From an uncultured Verrucomicrobiota bacterium (GTDB lineage Bacteria > Verrucomicrobiota > Verrucomicrobiia > Limisphaerales > UBA8199): DNA of 52,149 nucleotides. Below are positions 4,054-17,805 of the stretch, piece by piece (position 1 is the stretch's first letter; every line of letters begins with the position of its first letter). The DNA lies in contig CAIQQM010000025.1 of NCBI GenBank assembly GCA_903873945.1, forward strand, positions 1 through 52,149. Direction: 5' to 3'. Under the pieces are notes generated by a model. That model was not told the origin of the DNA. It ran no database searches and worked only from the letters and a program-made list of their open reading frames with translations. A program made the translations under genes and the position numbers.

Positions 4054-4629
4054 TTACAGATACTTGTCTTTGGCAATTCGCGCCAAAATCCTCCGCATTT
4101 CAGCCCGCGCCCGAAAAGCGCGCACCTTAACCAGCGGCATGGACCAACCGGTCAGGACTGAGATTTCTTTCACAGAGCGGTCTTCAATTTCCAACAGGGT
4201 GATGACCAGCCGCGCCGGCGCTGAGAGCTGTTCGAGGACTCGCTGAACCAACAGACGCGCGGCGTCCGCGCTTTCCCCAGCCGCCTCCGTCCCGCCAACA
4301 AAGTGCTCCAGCCAGTCAGTTTCCGGCTCGGTCAGCTCAGAAAAAGCGCTCTCCCGGTTGCGCTGATGGCCCCGGAGGAAATCATAGCAGGTCCGGACCG
4401 CGAGGCGCATCAACCAATGCTCGAAGGGCGCTTCAGAGCGAAAGCTTTTCAGTTTTTGAAATGCCTTGAGCCAAATCTCCTGAGCGATGTCCTCGACCTC
4501 GCTTTCGCGCCGTGAATAACGACGCACAGTTGAAAAAATGCGCGGGGAATACTTCCGGACCAACGGTTCGAAGCTTGAGGCATCGCCGTTCAGAACTGCG
4601 GCTATCAGATCCGCTTCGGTTGGTTCCAT
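4054..4629 (-). CDS. ECF-family RNA polymerase sigma factor
   Basis: 191 residues. Region 2 runs from about residue 20 to 90 (FEPLVRKYSPRIFSTVRRY, then VEDIAQEIWLKAFQKL, the -10 recognition part). Region 4 runs from about 130 to 185 (LSAPARLVITLLEIEDRSV, then a helix-turn-helix LTGWSMPLVKVRAFRAR). It lacks regions 1 and 3, which defines the ECF class. It is the first gene of a three-gene same-strand cassette with a membrane protein and a Spy/CnrX-like sensor. It probably redirects RNA polymerase to envelope or metal-stress genes when the sensor releases it, and copA next door is the obvious candidate target. Confidence 0.92.
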   Translation of the reverse strand: MEPTEADLIAAVLNGDASSFEPLVRKYSPRIFSTVRRYSRRESEVEDIAQEIWLKAFQKLKSFRSEAPFEHWLMRLAVRTCYDFLRGHQRNRESAFSELTEPETDWLEHFVGGTEAAGESADAARLLVQRVLEQLSAPARLVITLLEIEDRSVKEISVLTGWSMPLVKVRAFRARAEMRRILARIAKDKYL

Positions 4630-4703: not shown

Positions 4704-4761
4704 CCAGAAGCCATCTCATAAATACCTGCAGCGGCGTTGCAAGGAAAAGCATGACTTCTAG
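4704..4761. repeat. Short derivative of the CTAGAAG inverted-repeat element
   Basis: The left part, 'agaagccatctcataaata' followed by 'gcagcggcgttgc', matches the left end of the 353-bp element at 16775 almost base for base. The right end 'atgacttctag' matches that element's right terminus. Nearly all of the interior is missing, leaving 58 bases. The right-hand CTAG supplies the TAG stop codon of the minus-strand gene at 4758. It looks like an internally deleted, non-autonomous copy. Confidence 0.75.
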
Positions 4762-6502: not shown

Positions 6503-7861
6503 ATGATTACGCATCGCGCCAAGCGTCTTCGATCGGCCGCCACCGAGATCGTCCGAAGGCTTCAACGCGCCGGATTTTCGGCGTTTTGGGTCGGTGGTTG
6601 CGTACGTGATTTCCTGCTTGGCCGGGAGCCTGAAGATTACGATATCGCAACCAGCGCCCTGCCGGAGCAAATCGAGAAGCTCTTCAAACGCACCATTCCT
6701 GTAGGACGCAAATTTGGCGTCATGGTTGTGCTCGAAAACGCCCACCAGTTCCAAGTTGCGACTTTCCGCGCGGAAGCCGACTACCAAGACGGGCGGCACC
6801 CGGAACAGGTTACGTTCGGCGATGCGATGGCCGATGCGCGCCGTCGCGATTTCACAGTCAATGGCTTATTTTACGATCCCGCATCGAAAAAGCTCCACGA
6901 TTGGGTCGGCGGCCGTTCCGATCTCCTCGCCAAAACCATCCGCACGATCGGCTCACCGGCGGAACGGTTCGCCGAGGACCATTTGCGCCTGCTGCGCGCG
7001 ATCCGTTTTGCCGCGCAACTCGGTTTTGAAATCGAAGCCGACACTTTTGCCGCCTTGAGGGCAAACGCGCCGAAGATCGGCACGATCAGCGCCGAGCGCG
7101 TCCGCGACGAATTGGTCAAGTTATTGCGTCCGCCACACGCGGCGCCGGGGCTCGTCCTGCTGCATGAAAGCGGTTTGCTGACGAAAGTATTGCCGGAGAT
7201 CGAGGCCACTGTCCGCTGCGAGCAATCACCCGACTATCATCCCGAAGGCAGCGTTTTCGAACATCTGCTGCTCATGTTGAAACACCTGCCGCCGCGAGCG
7301 TCCAGTTCCCTGCCCTGGGCAGTGTTGCTGCATGATGTTGCGAAGCCGGTCACGGCTTCACGCGACCCGGCAACCGGCGCAATTCATTTCTACGCCCACG
7401 AAAAAACCGGGGCGGACATGGCGAAAAGCATTTTGGAACGGTTGCGCTTTCCGAGAAGGCAAATTGAAGACATTGCCAACGCCGTGCGCTATCACATGCA
7501 GTTCAAGGATGCGCCGAAGATGCGCAAATCGACTTTGCGCCGCTTACTGATGCGCCCGACCTTCGAGCTTGAACTTGAACTGCACCGTCTCGACTGCCTG
7601 GGTTCTCATGGCGACCTAGAAGTGCATCACTTTCTCCTTGAGCAAGCCAAAGAACTGGAGCGCCAGCCAATGATTCGGCCGCCGTTGCTCAGCGGGAATG
7701 CCCTGATCGCGCTGGGCATGAAACCCGGCCCGGCCATAGGCGCGCTGCTTGCGGAAATCCGCGAAAAACAGCTTCAGGATGAGTTGGAAACACCTGCCGA
7801 GGCACAAAAATGGGCAAAGAAAAGGATCAAGGGACCGGGCCGGCCGAAGAGAAATTCATGA
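6503..7861 (+). CDS. CCA tRNA nucleotidyltransferase / poly(A) polymerase family
   Basis: 452 residues. A class II nucleotidyltransferase head carries GGCVRDFLLGREPEDYDIAT at about residues 31-50, where DYD supplies the metal-binding Asp pair, and RRDFTVNGLFYDP near 113. RNA-binding helices follow (EDHLRLLRAIRFAAQLGFEI near 153-172), then an HD domain with LLHDVAKPVTA near 275 and YHMQF near 331. The HD domain is common in CCA-adding enzymes. Nucleotidyltransferases of this family either repair or build tRNA 3'-CCA ends or polyadenylate RNA, and the two cannot be separated by reading alone. CCA addition is the more likely role. Confidence 0.88.
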   Translation: MITHRAKRLRSAATEIVRRLQRAGFSAFWVGGCVRDFLLGREPEDYDIATSALPEQIEKLFKRTIPVGRKFGVMVVLENAHQFQVATFRAEADYQDGRHPEQVTFGDAMADARRRDFTVNGLFYDPASKKLHDWVGGRSDLLAKTIRTIGSPAERFAEDHLRLLRAIRFAAQLGFEIEADTFAALRANAPKIGTISAERVRDELVKLLRPPHAAPGLVLLHESGLLTKVLPEIEATVRCEQSPDYHPEGSVFEHLLLMLKHLPPRASSSLPWAVLLHDVAKPVTASRDPATGAIHFYAHEKTGADMAKSILERLRFPRRQIEDIANAVRYHMQFKDAPKMRKSTLRRLLMRPTFELELELHRLDCLGSHGDLEVHHFLLEQAKELERQPMIRPPLLSGNALIALGMKPGPAIGALLAEIREKQLQDELETPAEAQKWAKKRIKGPGRPKRNS

Positions 7862-7910
7862 GCAAGCTGCCGTTCGTCGATGATGAAGCGGGCATGGGGA
7901 ATTCAACATC

Positions 7911-7972
7911 AAGCAACTGGAGACTCGCCGGCAAGCAGACCGGCAATGTTTCCCGTGCCAGTTGCTTTTTCC
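7911..7972 (+). terminator. Branched hairpin with T-run between cca and the GT2 gene
   Basis: A perfect 10-bp outer stem (aagcaactgg / ccagttgctt) encloses a second small stem (gccgg / ccggc) and is followed by tttcccc. It lies 50 bases after the nucleotidyltransferase stop and 14 bases before the next gene. It may terminate the upstream operon or act as a leader structure for the glycosyltransferase. Confidence 0.5.
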
Positions 7973-7986
7973 CCGGCCTTTGATAT

Positions 7987-8817
7987 TTGATAAGAGTGAC
8001 TGAGCCCAGCTTGCTACTCCTGATCCCCGCCTATAACGAAGAAGGCCGCATTGGACCCGTGCTGCGTGACTACGCCAGTCATTTTAAAGCACAGTACCGG
8101 GGCAAGTTCCAATTGGTGGTGGTCCTTAACGGCTGCACGGATGACACTATTGGCGTCGTGCGGCGTGTGGCATCCGAATATCCCTTTGTGAGCGCCCTGG
8201 AATTTCCGGGGGCAATCGGCAAAGGCGGAGCCCTGATTGAAGGGCTGAAACTGGCCCCGCTAGCGGACTTGATCGGCTACGTGGACGCGGACGGGGCCAC
8301 CCCGCCCCGGGCCTTCCTGGACCTGGTGCGGCACATGGACAAGGCAGACTGTGTCATTGGCTCGCGCTGGCTGCCCGAATCAGTGCTGCACGTCGAGCAG
8401 ACGAACCGGCGCCAGTTTGCCAGCCGTGTTTTTCATCGCATCGTGCAACTGCTCTTTCGCATGAACATTCGCGACACGCAATGCGGTGCCAAGATCATCC
8501 GGCGGCAGGCAGTGGAAAAAATCCATTCCAGCCTGCGCATCGCAGACATGGCATTTGACATCAACCTCCTCTACTCCCTCAAACATGCCGGCTACCACAT
8601 CCTCGAGGTGCCGACGGAATGGACGGACAAAATCGGTTCGAAGGTTACGTTGTTCGGCACTTCACTGGTGATGTTTCTTTCCGCGGTCCGGGTTCGACTG
8701 ATTTATTCGCCATTTTACAAATGGCTCCGCCCCTTACGCCCCCTGGAGGCCTGGGTTTACAAGAAACTGAGCGCGCCGCCCCCGCGACCGGGGCCGCCGC
8801 ACAGAGCCGGACGGTAA
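7987..8817 (+). CDS. Family 2 glycosyltransferase, dolichyl-phosphate sugar synthase type
   Basis: 276 residues. The GT-A fold opens with LLLIPAYNEEGRIGPVLRDY near residues 8-27. The nucleotide-sugar and metal site is YVDADGATPP near 99, followed by ADCVIGSRWLP near 120 and NIRDTQCGAKIIRR near 160. This is the pattern of DPM1/ALG5-like enzymes that move a hexose from UDP or GDP to a polyprenyl phosphate on the cytoplasmic membrane face. There is no multi-pass C-terminal domain, so it is the short soluble form. The track starts it at TTG 7987; GTG 7996 is the alternative. A convergent flippase gene follows, which suggests cell-envelope glycan work. Confidence 0.85.
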   Translation: MIRVTEPSLLLLIPAYNEEGRIGPVLRDYASHFKAQYRGKFQLVVVLNGCTDDTIGVVRRVASEYPFVSALEFPGAIGKGGALIEGLKLAPLADLIGYVDADGATPPRAFLDLVRHMDKADCVIGSRWLPESVLHVEQTNRRQFASRVFHRIVQLLFRMNIRDTQCGAKIIRRQAVEKIHSSLRIADMAFDINLLYSLKHAGYHILEVPTEWTDKIGSKVTLFGTSLVMFLSAVRVRLIYSPFYKWLRPLRPLEAWVYKKLSAPPPRPGPPHRAGR

Positions 8818-14700: not shown

Positions 14701-15654
14701 CTAGGGCGCGACTCGATTAAACCAATCCACGAACCGGGGAATGCCCTGCTCGATTTTGACGCGCGGGTTGTACCCAAGATTTGCCCGCGCCTTGGAGATA
14801 TCGGCGCAGGTCAGCGGGACGTCGCCCGGCTGCAACGGCTGCCAATTGATACGGGCTTTCTTACCCAGCGCAGCTTCCAGCAACTCGATGAGACGGTTAA
14901 GTTTCACAGCCTGCGATTCGCCAAGGTTGAAGATTTCATAACCAAATTTCTTCTCCGTGCAAGCCATTATGCCATCGAGGATGTCGTCGATGTGCGTGTA
15001 ATCCCGCGCCGTCGATCCGTCGCCAAAGACAGGAATGGGCAGGCCGGCATGGATCAGCGCCGCGAACTTATGGATCGCAAGGTCCGGCCGCTGGCGCGCG
15101 CCATAAACCGTGAAGAACCGCAGCACAACGATATCCAGACCGTAAACGTGGTGGTAAACATGACCAAGGGCTTCGCAGGCCAGCTTGCTCGCGGCATAAG
15201 GCGAAATTGCGGAAAAAATCGGGTCCCCTTCGGAAAAAGGGACCTTGGAATTCACCCCGTAGACCGAGGAGGAAGAAGCCATGATGATTTTGCCCGCACC
15301 GTTGAGCCGCGCCGCCTCCAGAAGATTGACCGTTCCCTCCACATTCACCCGCACACAATCGGCCGGCTCGGCGAGGCTCGGCTGGACACCCGCCCGCGCC
15401 GCGAGGTGAACAACCTGGTCAAACCTGACCCGGCCCATCAACTCCCCGAGCAGCTTGCGGTCATTCAGATCGCCCTGCACGAATTCAAAAGGTTTTCCCA
15501 AGCACTGAACCTCGCGAAGGTTGCGCCGCTTGAGTTGCGGGTCGTAGAAATTGTCCAGGTTGTCGAGGGCCCAAACCGCGTGTCCGCAACGGAGCAGCCT
15601 CTCGCACACGTGCGAGCCAATGAAGCCCGCGCCGCCGGTGACAAGGAAATTCAC
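14701..15654 (-). CDS. NAD-dependent nucleotide-sugar epimerase
   Basis: 317 residues of the extended SDR family. The NAD site is VTGGAGFIGSHVCERLL at the N-terminus, the catalytic pair YxxxK is YAASKLACE near residue 150, and the Ser/Thr partner is MASSSSVYG near 125. The segments AARAGVQPSLAEP and FGDGSTARDYTHIDDI are typical of UDP-glucuronate or UDP-glucose 4-epimerases. It probably makes a UDP-sugar for surface polysaccharide. A hypothetical gene follows 6 bases downstream, and xerC is divergent about 200 bases away. Confidence 0.88.
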   Translation of the reverse strand: MNFLVTGGAGFIGSHVCERLLRCGHAVWALDNLDNFYDPQLKRRNLREVQCLGKPFEFVQGDLNDRKLLGELMGRVRFDQVVHLAARAGVQPSLAEPADCVRVNVEGTVNLLEAARLNGAGKIIMASSSSVYGVNSKVPFSEGDPIFSAISPYAASKLACEALGHVYHHVYGLDIVVLRFFTVYGARQRPDLAIHKFAALIHAGLPIPVFGDGSTARDYTHIDDILDGIMACTEKKFGYEIFNLGESQAVKLNRLIELLEAALGKKARINWQPLQPGDVPLTCADISKARANLGYNPRVKIEQGIPRFVDWFNRVAP

Positions 15655-15857
15655 GCGGAAACGCTACCAAACCATTGCAACCTCTGTCGAGTGTCCGGTG
15701 GAGATCCGTTCCGCGCTTCCGAGATCCTCAGTTCCCCCGGCCATGACGTTTGGATCACATCAACCGGCGATTTAAACTTTGAAGACAGCCGTTCAAATCT
15801 CATACTCCAATGAATGGCGAAGGAAACTGGCGACCGATTAAGCGGCAAGATGCTCCG

Positions 15858-16778
15858 ATGAACCAACTCGTTGAGGACTTTCTCCAATACATCCGCCATG
15901 AGCGCGGCCAAGCGGAGCACACACAACGAACCTATGCGGCTCTATTGAACAAGTTCATCGCGTGGGCGGAAAAGCAAGGCCTCTCGGCCTGGAAATCGGT
16001 GGAGCTGAGCCATTTGATGTCCTTCCTGCAAGCCGAGCGTGCCCGGGCCCTGGCCAATCAGCCCAAAGATTCGCCGCGCCGGCTTAGCGGGGAGAGTGTT
16101 TATCTGGAGATCGCCGCTTTGCGCGCGTTCTACCGCTTTGCGGAGAGCGAAAGGCTACTGCCAACGAACATCGCGGAGAACCTGTCCCTGCCGCGCCGCT
16201 GGAAGCGCCTGCCAAAATCGCTCACCGACCGGGAGATCGAAAAACTGCTCACGCCGGAGACACCCGAAACACCCCGCAGCCTTTGCGACCAGGCGGCGCT
16301 GGAACTGGCTTATGCCTCGGGCTTGCGCCTAGCCGAACTACGCAACGTGCGCCTGGAACAGCTGCATCTCGAAGCCGGCTTCATCAATGTCATTGGCAAA
16401 GGCAACAAAGAACGCGTGGTGCCCCTGGGCCGCAAAGCTGCAGCAGCGATGGAACGCTATCTCTCGACCGGCCGGCCGAAGCTGGTGAACCCGAAGTCGC
16501 CGGCCACCGTCTTCCTCACCAAACGCGGGAAACCTTTCCACCCGGTAACACTGTGGCTGCACATCAAGCAGCGCGCCCGCCACGCGGGCATTTCCCGCAA
16601 CGTCACTCCCCACATGCTTCGGCACAGCTTCGCCACCCACCTGCTCGAACACGGCGCCGACCTGCGCGTCATCCAAGAACTACTTGGCCACGCCAATATC
16701 AGCACGACCGAAGTTTATACCCATGTGGCCGGCAGCCGGCTGCGTGAAGTGCACCGGAAATATCATCCGCGAGCCTAG
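15858..16778 (+). CDS. xerC: Tyrosine recombinase XerC
   Basis: About 306 residues. The N-terminal SAM-like core-binding domain (FLQYIRHERGQAEHTQRTY) is followed by the catalytic domain with the classical residues: Arg in SGLRLAELRNV, Lys in GKGNKERVVPLG, HxLRH in THMLRHSFATH-like sequence, GHANISTTEVY with the second His, and the nucleophilic Tyr in TEVYTHV. It resolves chromosome dimers at dif together with XerD. The track starts at 15810; the ATG at 15858 fits the family N-terminus better (MNQLVEDFLQYIRHERG). The TAG stop is the TAG of the CTAG at the left end of the repeat element at 16775. Confidence 0.9.
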   Translation: MNQLVEDFLQYIRHERGQAEHTQRTYAALLNKFIAWAEKQGLSAWKSVELSHLMSFLQAERARALANQPKDSPRRLSGESVYLEIAALRAFYRFAESERLLPTNIAENLSLPRRWKRLPKSLTDREIEKLLTPETPETPRSLCDQAALELAYASGLRLAELRNVRLEQLHLEAGFINVIGKGNKERVVPLGRKAAAAMERYLSTGRPKLVNPKSPATVFLTKRGKPFHPVTLWLHIKQRARHAGISRNVTPHMLRHSFATHLLEHGADLRVIQELLGHANISTTEVYTHVAGSRLREVHRKYHPRA

Positions 16779-17127
16779 AAGCCATCTCACAAATATCCGC
16801 AGCGGCGTTGCGAAGAGAAACATGCATTACATCCCGGCTTAAAATGGGAAGATGGAAGGCGAACGGAGCGGCCGATCTTTGGGCCGACCGCGTTGTTGTT
16901 CGTCGCTTTGGCTTCCCAAGCCCTGCAAGTTAGGCGCCCAGAAAGGACGTGCACTTCGCGCATAGCAGTCAGCCCGCAGAGGGGATGCGCGCTGCCTCAC
17001 GCGTTGGCTTCCCAAGCCCGCCACGAGTCAGTCGCCCAAAAGAAGACGATCGCTGTCGCGATTTGTGGTGCCGCCGGCCCAAATCTCTGACCGCGCCATC
17101 TGCTGCTATTTATGAGATGACTTCTAG
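16775..17127. mobile_element. 353-bp MITE-like element with 21-bp inverted repeats
   Basis: The left end CTAGAAGCCATCTCACAAATA (16775-16795) and the reverse complement of the right end (17107-17127) agree at 19 of 21 bases. A looser match continues inward (gcagcggcg against gcagatggcg). Both ends are bounded by CTAG, which could be a target duplication of the YTAR type or part of the repeat. The interior has no transposase. It has a 16-bp direct repeat (ttggcttcccaagccc) at 16908 and 17004. The ORFs the track shows here overlap each other on both strands and look spurious. A 58-bp derivative lies at 4704-4761. I interpret it as a non-autonomous, transposase-mobilised element. Bases 17128-17325 beyond it hold only the AAGGTGAG ribosome binding site of the Lrp gene. 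Confidence 0.75.
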
Positions 17128-17325: not shown

Positions 17326-17805
17326 ATGGATGAACTGTTGAAAATCTTGCAACTGAACGCGCTGGAATCGCGCGAGAACATCGCCCGGATGCTGAATCTG
17401 CCTGCGGCGGAAGTGGGGCAACGGATTGCTGATTATGAAAAAAAAGGCGTCATCAGGGGATATCAGGCGATATTGAATGAAGACCGGCTTGATTTGGAGA
17501 AAGTCACCGCCGTCATCGAGGTGAAGGTGACCCCGCAGCGCGAAGGCGGTTTCGACGTCATCGCGGAGCGGATCAGCCGGTTTCCGGAGGTGCGTTCTTT
17601 GTATCTCATGAGCGGGACGTACGATCTGCTGCTGTTTGTGGAGGGGCGCACCCTCCGCGAAGTGGCAGGATTTGTCAGCGAGCGGCTTTCGCCCCTTGCA
17701 GGCGTGCTTTCAACCTCCACCCATTTTATGCTCAAGACGTACAAGCGTTTTGGAGTATTGATGCAGCAGGAGACTTCCGATGAGCGACTCACCGTCTCTC
17801 CGTAA
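17326..17805 (+). CDS. Lrp/AsnC family transcriptional regulator
   Basis: 159 residues. An N-terminal winged helix-turn-helix (residues about 5-50: LESRENIARMLNLPAAEVGQ, then YEKKGVIRGYQAIL) is followed by the RAM effector-binding domain (VTAVIEVKVTPQREGGFDVI, VRSLYLMSGTYDLLLFVEG). This is the standard Lrp layout and length. AAGGTGAG sits 5 bases before the ATG. The gene overlaps the aminotransferase start by 26 bases, so it almost certainly controls that gene and itself, probably in response to the amino acid the enzyme handles. Confidence 0.9.
   Translation: MDELLKILQLNALESRENIARMLNLPAAEVGQRIADYEKKGVIRGYQAILNEDRLDLEKVTAVIEVKVTPQREGGFDVIAERISRFPEVRSLYLMSGTYDLLLFVEGRTLREVAGFVSERLSPLAGVLSTSTHFMLKTYKRFGVLMQQETSDERLTVSP

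Follow-up and report, generated by a model that had tools for sequence, protein, structure and literature searches.

Two copies of a small repeated element, one of 353 bp and one of 58 bp, lie in the window (the whole stretch of 52,149 nucleotides analysed here), and each coincides with the TAG stop codon of a neighboring gene. This raises the question of whether the element provides these genes with their stops, is drawn to stop codons, or leaves intact stops that were already present.

Stop codons at the borders of the two copies

The coincidence had been noted in a sequence-only reading and was confirmed by the coordinates (Table 1). The 353-bp element is bordered by CTAG at 16775-16778 and 17124-17127. 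The stop of the Xer gene falls within the left one and is composed of the TA of the host target and the first G of the element. In the 58-bp copy the right border is CTAG and overlaps the stop of a minus-strand gene for a small DHp-like protein; the left border reads CCAG instead of CTAG, its TA having decayed to CA. There is a clear relationship between the copies, which match at 84% over 51 bp (E=4e-11).

Both neighboring genes are real. The Xer product matched Pfam Phage_integrase (2e-48) and passed an NCBIfam 'tyrosine recombinase' subfamily model, while the XerC and XerD models both scored below their cut-offs. The name xerC given to this gene earlier is a loose one. The DHp-like protein had only a sub-threshold match to SPOB_a (3.8e-5); its orthologue was present in 13 of 13 genomes of the host family.

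Table 1. Positions of the element copies and of the adjoining genes in the window.
Feature	Position	Strand	Remarks
58-bp copy of the putative MITE, internally deleted, with borders	4704-4761	+	body 4707-4758; left TA is CA at 4705-4706 (decayed); right TA 4759-4760
Right CTAG of the 58-bp copy	4758-4761	.	the DHp-like gene stops here, with TAG on the minus strand at 4758-4760
DHp/SPOB_a-like protein gene, 84 aa	4758-5012	-	C-terminus ...GITRH-stop, as in element-free relatives
Sigma-70-family (ECF-type) sigma factor gene	4054-4629	-	Sigma70_r2, Sigma70_r4_2; downstream of the 58-bp copy
XerC/D-type tyrosine recombinase gene	15810-16778	+	TAG stop 16776-16778
353-bp copy of the putative MITE with borders	16775-17127	+	body 16778-17124; TA duplications 16776-16777 and 17125-17126
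Left terminal inverted repeat, GAAGCCATCTCACAAATA	16778-16795	+	353-bp copy
Right terminal inverted repeat, minus-strand reading GAAGTCATCTCATAAATA	17107-17124	-	353-bp copy
Lrp/AsnC regulator gene	17326-17805	+	profile match; downstream of the 353-bp copy

Insertion sites and gene ends

The host assembly (3.48 Mb in 312 contigs, 90% complete) contained seven copies of the element: the two in the window and those on contigs C233, C23, C108, C169 (truncated on the right) and C156/C297. The two parts, one closing C156 and one opening C297, agree in sequence where they overlap. In relatives, the C156 flank GGCCAGAATTCAT is matched immediately upstream of the gene adjoining the C297 part, a gene which we take from its sequence to be DUF167-like; the two parts are probably one split insertion. 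Terminal repeats GAAGYYATCTCATAAATA and a TA border are common to the copies, and the interiors are shortened to varying degrees. The terminal inverted repeats are approximately 15-20 bp long in full-length copies; the 58-bp copy retains one end, and of the second end the final 11 bases. The repeats occur in many phyla, in at least 117 stretches, and a copy of the same family is present in a Pedosphaera MAG (L129). In a search of 388 genomes of the phylum the exact terminal-repeat pattern was found in the host genome only.

The target duplication is the 2-bp TA. Among the matches listed, TA was present in the host-side flanks of 116 ends, with 85 CTA and 18 TTA and with A favored at position -4. 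The earlier proposal that the element targets CTAG is thus supported by the flanks, which show a broader preference for YTAR.

Two of the other insertions lie at gene starts. The C108 copy (G000:C108:3439-3664; L034:1438-1667) sits within codons 6-7 of recQ, the joined flanks of which read MQAGTLNLLPLLKQYFGF. With the element in place, an in-frame start to MTSNLLPLLKQYFGF (MTSNLLPLL...) is offered by an ATG in the right terminal repeat, and this putative start would replace the first six recQ codons. From the old start a 78-codon frame now runs through the element, and its end overlaps the new start in ATGA. RecQ proteins of relatives have variable, element-free N-termini before LLPLLKQYFGF. 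At the start of the DUF167-like gene (C297:267/C156:53949 of G000; L035, L032) the ATG is kept in the right border TATG, and a further in-frame ATG upstream of it comes from the element.

The host genome also carries a second, unrelated IS5-like IS, with ends reading TA followed by GAGCCTGTCATGCAC (TA followed by GAGCCTGTCATGCACTTTTAGC); 20 exact ends were found on 19 contigs (L259-L278). The inspected ends lie at contig ends and the copies are near-identical, which suggests recent activity. This IS enters YTA, with C at 17 and T at three of the 20 ends.

To judge the coincidence with stop codons, the frequency of CTAG itself has to be considered. CTAG is about 7-fold under-represented in the host genome (253 occurrences in 452 kb, 1695 being expected from base composition), and a deficit of about 7-fold was likewise found in the window (positions 1-52149; 25 against 195). 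When the three CTAGs of element copies were set aside, 197 of those in the 452 kb were in genes, 36 were intergenic and 17 were gene-ending TAGs; this count was made with a hexamer coding score, a longest-ORF caller having misassigned some genes, including the one with its stop at 14701. Outside gene interiors there are 53 unoccupied CTAGs, 17 of them gene-ending TAGs; an element limited to harmless CTAGs would therefore meet a stop about one third of the time. Two of the seven copies in the host genome, and two of the three located at a CTAG, are on TAG stops. The latter proportion is unremarkable (binomial P of about 0.24 at 32%, calculated by hand from 17/53). The window has CTAG at two further gene stops (14701 and 40814), neither of which carries an element.

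In the cross-phylum survey, which used home-made gene calls and had several ends contributed by a single genome or element, gene-ending TAGs accounted for 9 of 82 occupied CTA ends and 45 of 1045 free CTAGs among the matches listed (p=0.013, one-sided classification). With another gene criterion the figures for the matches listed were 12 of 82 and 62 of 1092 (p=0.004). An outgoing gene was cut by three of the 82 occupied ends (4%), against 268 of the 1045 free sites (26%), again among the matches listed, so that insertions within genes are in deficit.

The excess at gene-ending TAGs (odds ratio 2.7-3.2 among the matches listed) could be explained by transposition machinery that is drawn to stop codons or their surroundings and favors gene-ending TAGs over other CTAGs. 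It was not significant, however, when CTAGs within genes were left out: the ratio of TAG stops to intergenic sites was 9:56 for occupied and 45:422 for free sites (odds ratio 1.5, p=0.28), and the stricter of the two gene-length cut-offs gave an odds ratio of 2.0 (p=0.085), both for the matches listed. Moreover, five of the seven host-genome copies are off TAG stops, the one on C233 lying 8 nt past a TGA, and the resident high-copy IS has two of its 20 ends on TAG stops, with six in outgoing genes, which would fit a younger and less purged element. We therefore consider an attraction to gene ends very unlikely. The preference for TAG stops implied in the sequence-only reading was not seen in the other copies, and beyond CTAG targeting and absence from gene interiors nothing significant was left in the survey. 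The pattern is what an element that targets CTAG would leave once harmful insertions had been lost, although a mild true preference may exist, as stops are enriched against all free CTAGs taken together. It is also quite unlikely that CTAG-targeting elements beginning with G and ending with C form a stop-preserving class, in which the rebuilding of CTAG would be a selected safe-haven trait combined with a mild TAG-stop preference.

Identity and origin of the element

Among the matches listed, most sequences with these terminal repeats were non-coding and short, about 76-220 bp in length. The same ends also bound elements of 784-859 bp in five other genomes (L077, L084, L086, L091 and L098, among the matches listed). 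Transposases of three of these (L084, L091 of Rhodocytophaga aerolata and L098) scored above the NCBIfam cut-off for the IS5 family (NF033580), and that of L098 also matched Pfam DDE_Tnp_1. The sequences thus point to a MITE of IS5 type, probably IS427-like; the IS427 group is a candidate assignment made from length, TA duplication and split frames. IS427-group insertion sequences of the IS5 family, such as IS1248 and ISPpa2, are 832-865 bp long with mostly 2-bp duplications, and some have two overlapping transposase frames (PMC3281130). The full-length elements with the ends of the MITE resemble them in size, in TA duplication and in encoding IS5-family DDE transposases. The element of the window differs in having no transposase, and the likeness is one of length, duplication and frames.

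A MITE of IS630/Tc1 type would have the same CTAG target and TA duplication; in IS630 the TA inside CTAG is duplicated on insertion (Tenzen and Ohtsubo 1991, as cited in PMC6811581). The ends and the transposase family differ, however: the full-length elements with these terminal repeats encode transposases of the IS5 family, no IS630 model was among the profile matches, and no IS630-type gene was seen in the five full-length elements listed. An IS630/Tc1 origin is therefore highly improbable.

No transposase gene with the ends of the element was found in the host genome, the assembly of which is fragmented and 90% complete. Only weak matches were obtained, and eight of these traced to another IS. 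An autonomous partner is usual, not required, and may have been lost or left unassembled here. The element had no match in Rfam at E values up to 1 that would indicate a structured RNA, and no tRNA was found in the window. The MITE family is new and its type already known; titles and abstracts on insertion sequences at TAG stops or on MITEs of Verrucomicrobia held nothing on point. In one Bacteroidetes MAG (UBA4416) these terminal repeats bound a MITE of 161 bp at two sites (L115:7040-7200 and L072:4194-4354); as these copies show, ends of the GAAGYYATCTCATAAATA type have been amplified in other phyla too. The interior unit of the MITE (TTGGCTTCCCAAGCCC...) resembles repeats at 7666-7997 and 10852-10915 of L279 (G009:C12), an 18-kb contig of another genus with 10 tRNA genes.

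In its initial portion the 58-bp copy matches the C23/C108 type, after which it reads TAG. C108 carries an internal ATGACTTC at this breakpoint, and the same eight bases precede its right border. The short copy could have arisen by deletion between the two ATGACTTC direct repeats; alternatively, the internal ATGACTTC may have served as a false end during transposition.

Age of the stops and mode of insertion

The joined flanks of the 353-bp element read GCC TAG CCG at the end of the Xer gene. For the DHp-like gene the empty site would read CAC TAG GGG on the minus strand, on the assumption that the CA derives from TA. A TAG was in place at the empty site, since the TA belongs to the host target and a G follows in the opposite flank as well. 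The C-termini were compared at 25 loci of the same family, four of which had no readable C-terminus. In element-free relatives the Xer protein ends in KYHPRS followed by TAG (G012) or in KYHPRP (several others), and the DHp-like protein in GITRH followed by TAG (G007) or in GITRP (G001 and G003); longer tails were seen in a few. Both proteins thus stop at the same residue with and without the element, and the suggestions that the element supplies a stop, or that it trims or extends C-termini, were not upheld. Since CTAG is re-created at each border, and since element-free relatives share the end residue, the stops are older than the insertions. The idea that the element created them, by truncating longer genes or by entering stop-less sites so that reading ends inside it, can be given almost no credence: the G at 16778 that completes the Xer stop is formally element sequence, but the same base follows the TA in the other flank, and the protein ends in the relatives are the same.

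We think it very probable that the element is a passive MITE whose insertion rebuilds the target CTAG and keeps pre-existing TAG stops, so that the two insertions were neutral. A non-autonomous MITE would depend on an IS5-family (IS427-like) transposase acting in trans, which would insert it at TA, preferentially in C^TA^G, and duplicate the TA. As the TA is duplicated and the element begins with G and ends with C, CTAG would be re-formed on both sides; it follows that any TAG stop overlapping the target would survive, whichever strand carries it. Since the Xer and DHp-like genes had ended in TAG beforehand, these insertions were neutral and retained, and loss of gene-breaking insertions would have produced the observed pattern of sites. 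The part of the earlier proposal by which the element can settle on a gene stop without harm agrees with this, since insertion leaves a TAG at the border. Preservation of the stop has an ordinary cause and is a by-product of the target and the end sequence of the element.

Comparable small elements are known. MITEPsy1 of Pseudomonas syringae is small and non-coding, has IS5-like ends and enters CTAG or YTAA, and its movement was demonstrated; it differs in its length of 100 bp, its 4-bp duplication and its terminal repeats, and the passages of PMC3189936 describing it make no link to stop codons. Enterobacterial RU-1/RU-2 MITEs share the TA duplication and the location at gene ends (PMC2759123). 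In one such case the natural stop was removed by the element and the protein ECA3499 was lengthened (PMC2759123), whereas the stop is preserved by the element of the window.

Duplication of TA inside CTAG, combined with an initial G that rebuilds the target, offers a simple and checkable reason why small elements can reside at gene ends without harm. CTAG is rare inside genes, and gene-ending TAGs are a fair share of the harmless sites of the element. For annotation, a stop codon found in the border of an element need not derive from that element.
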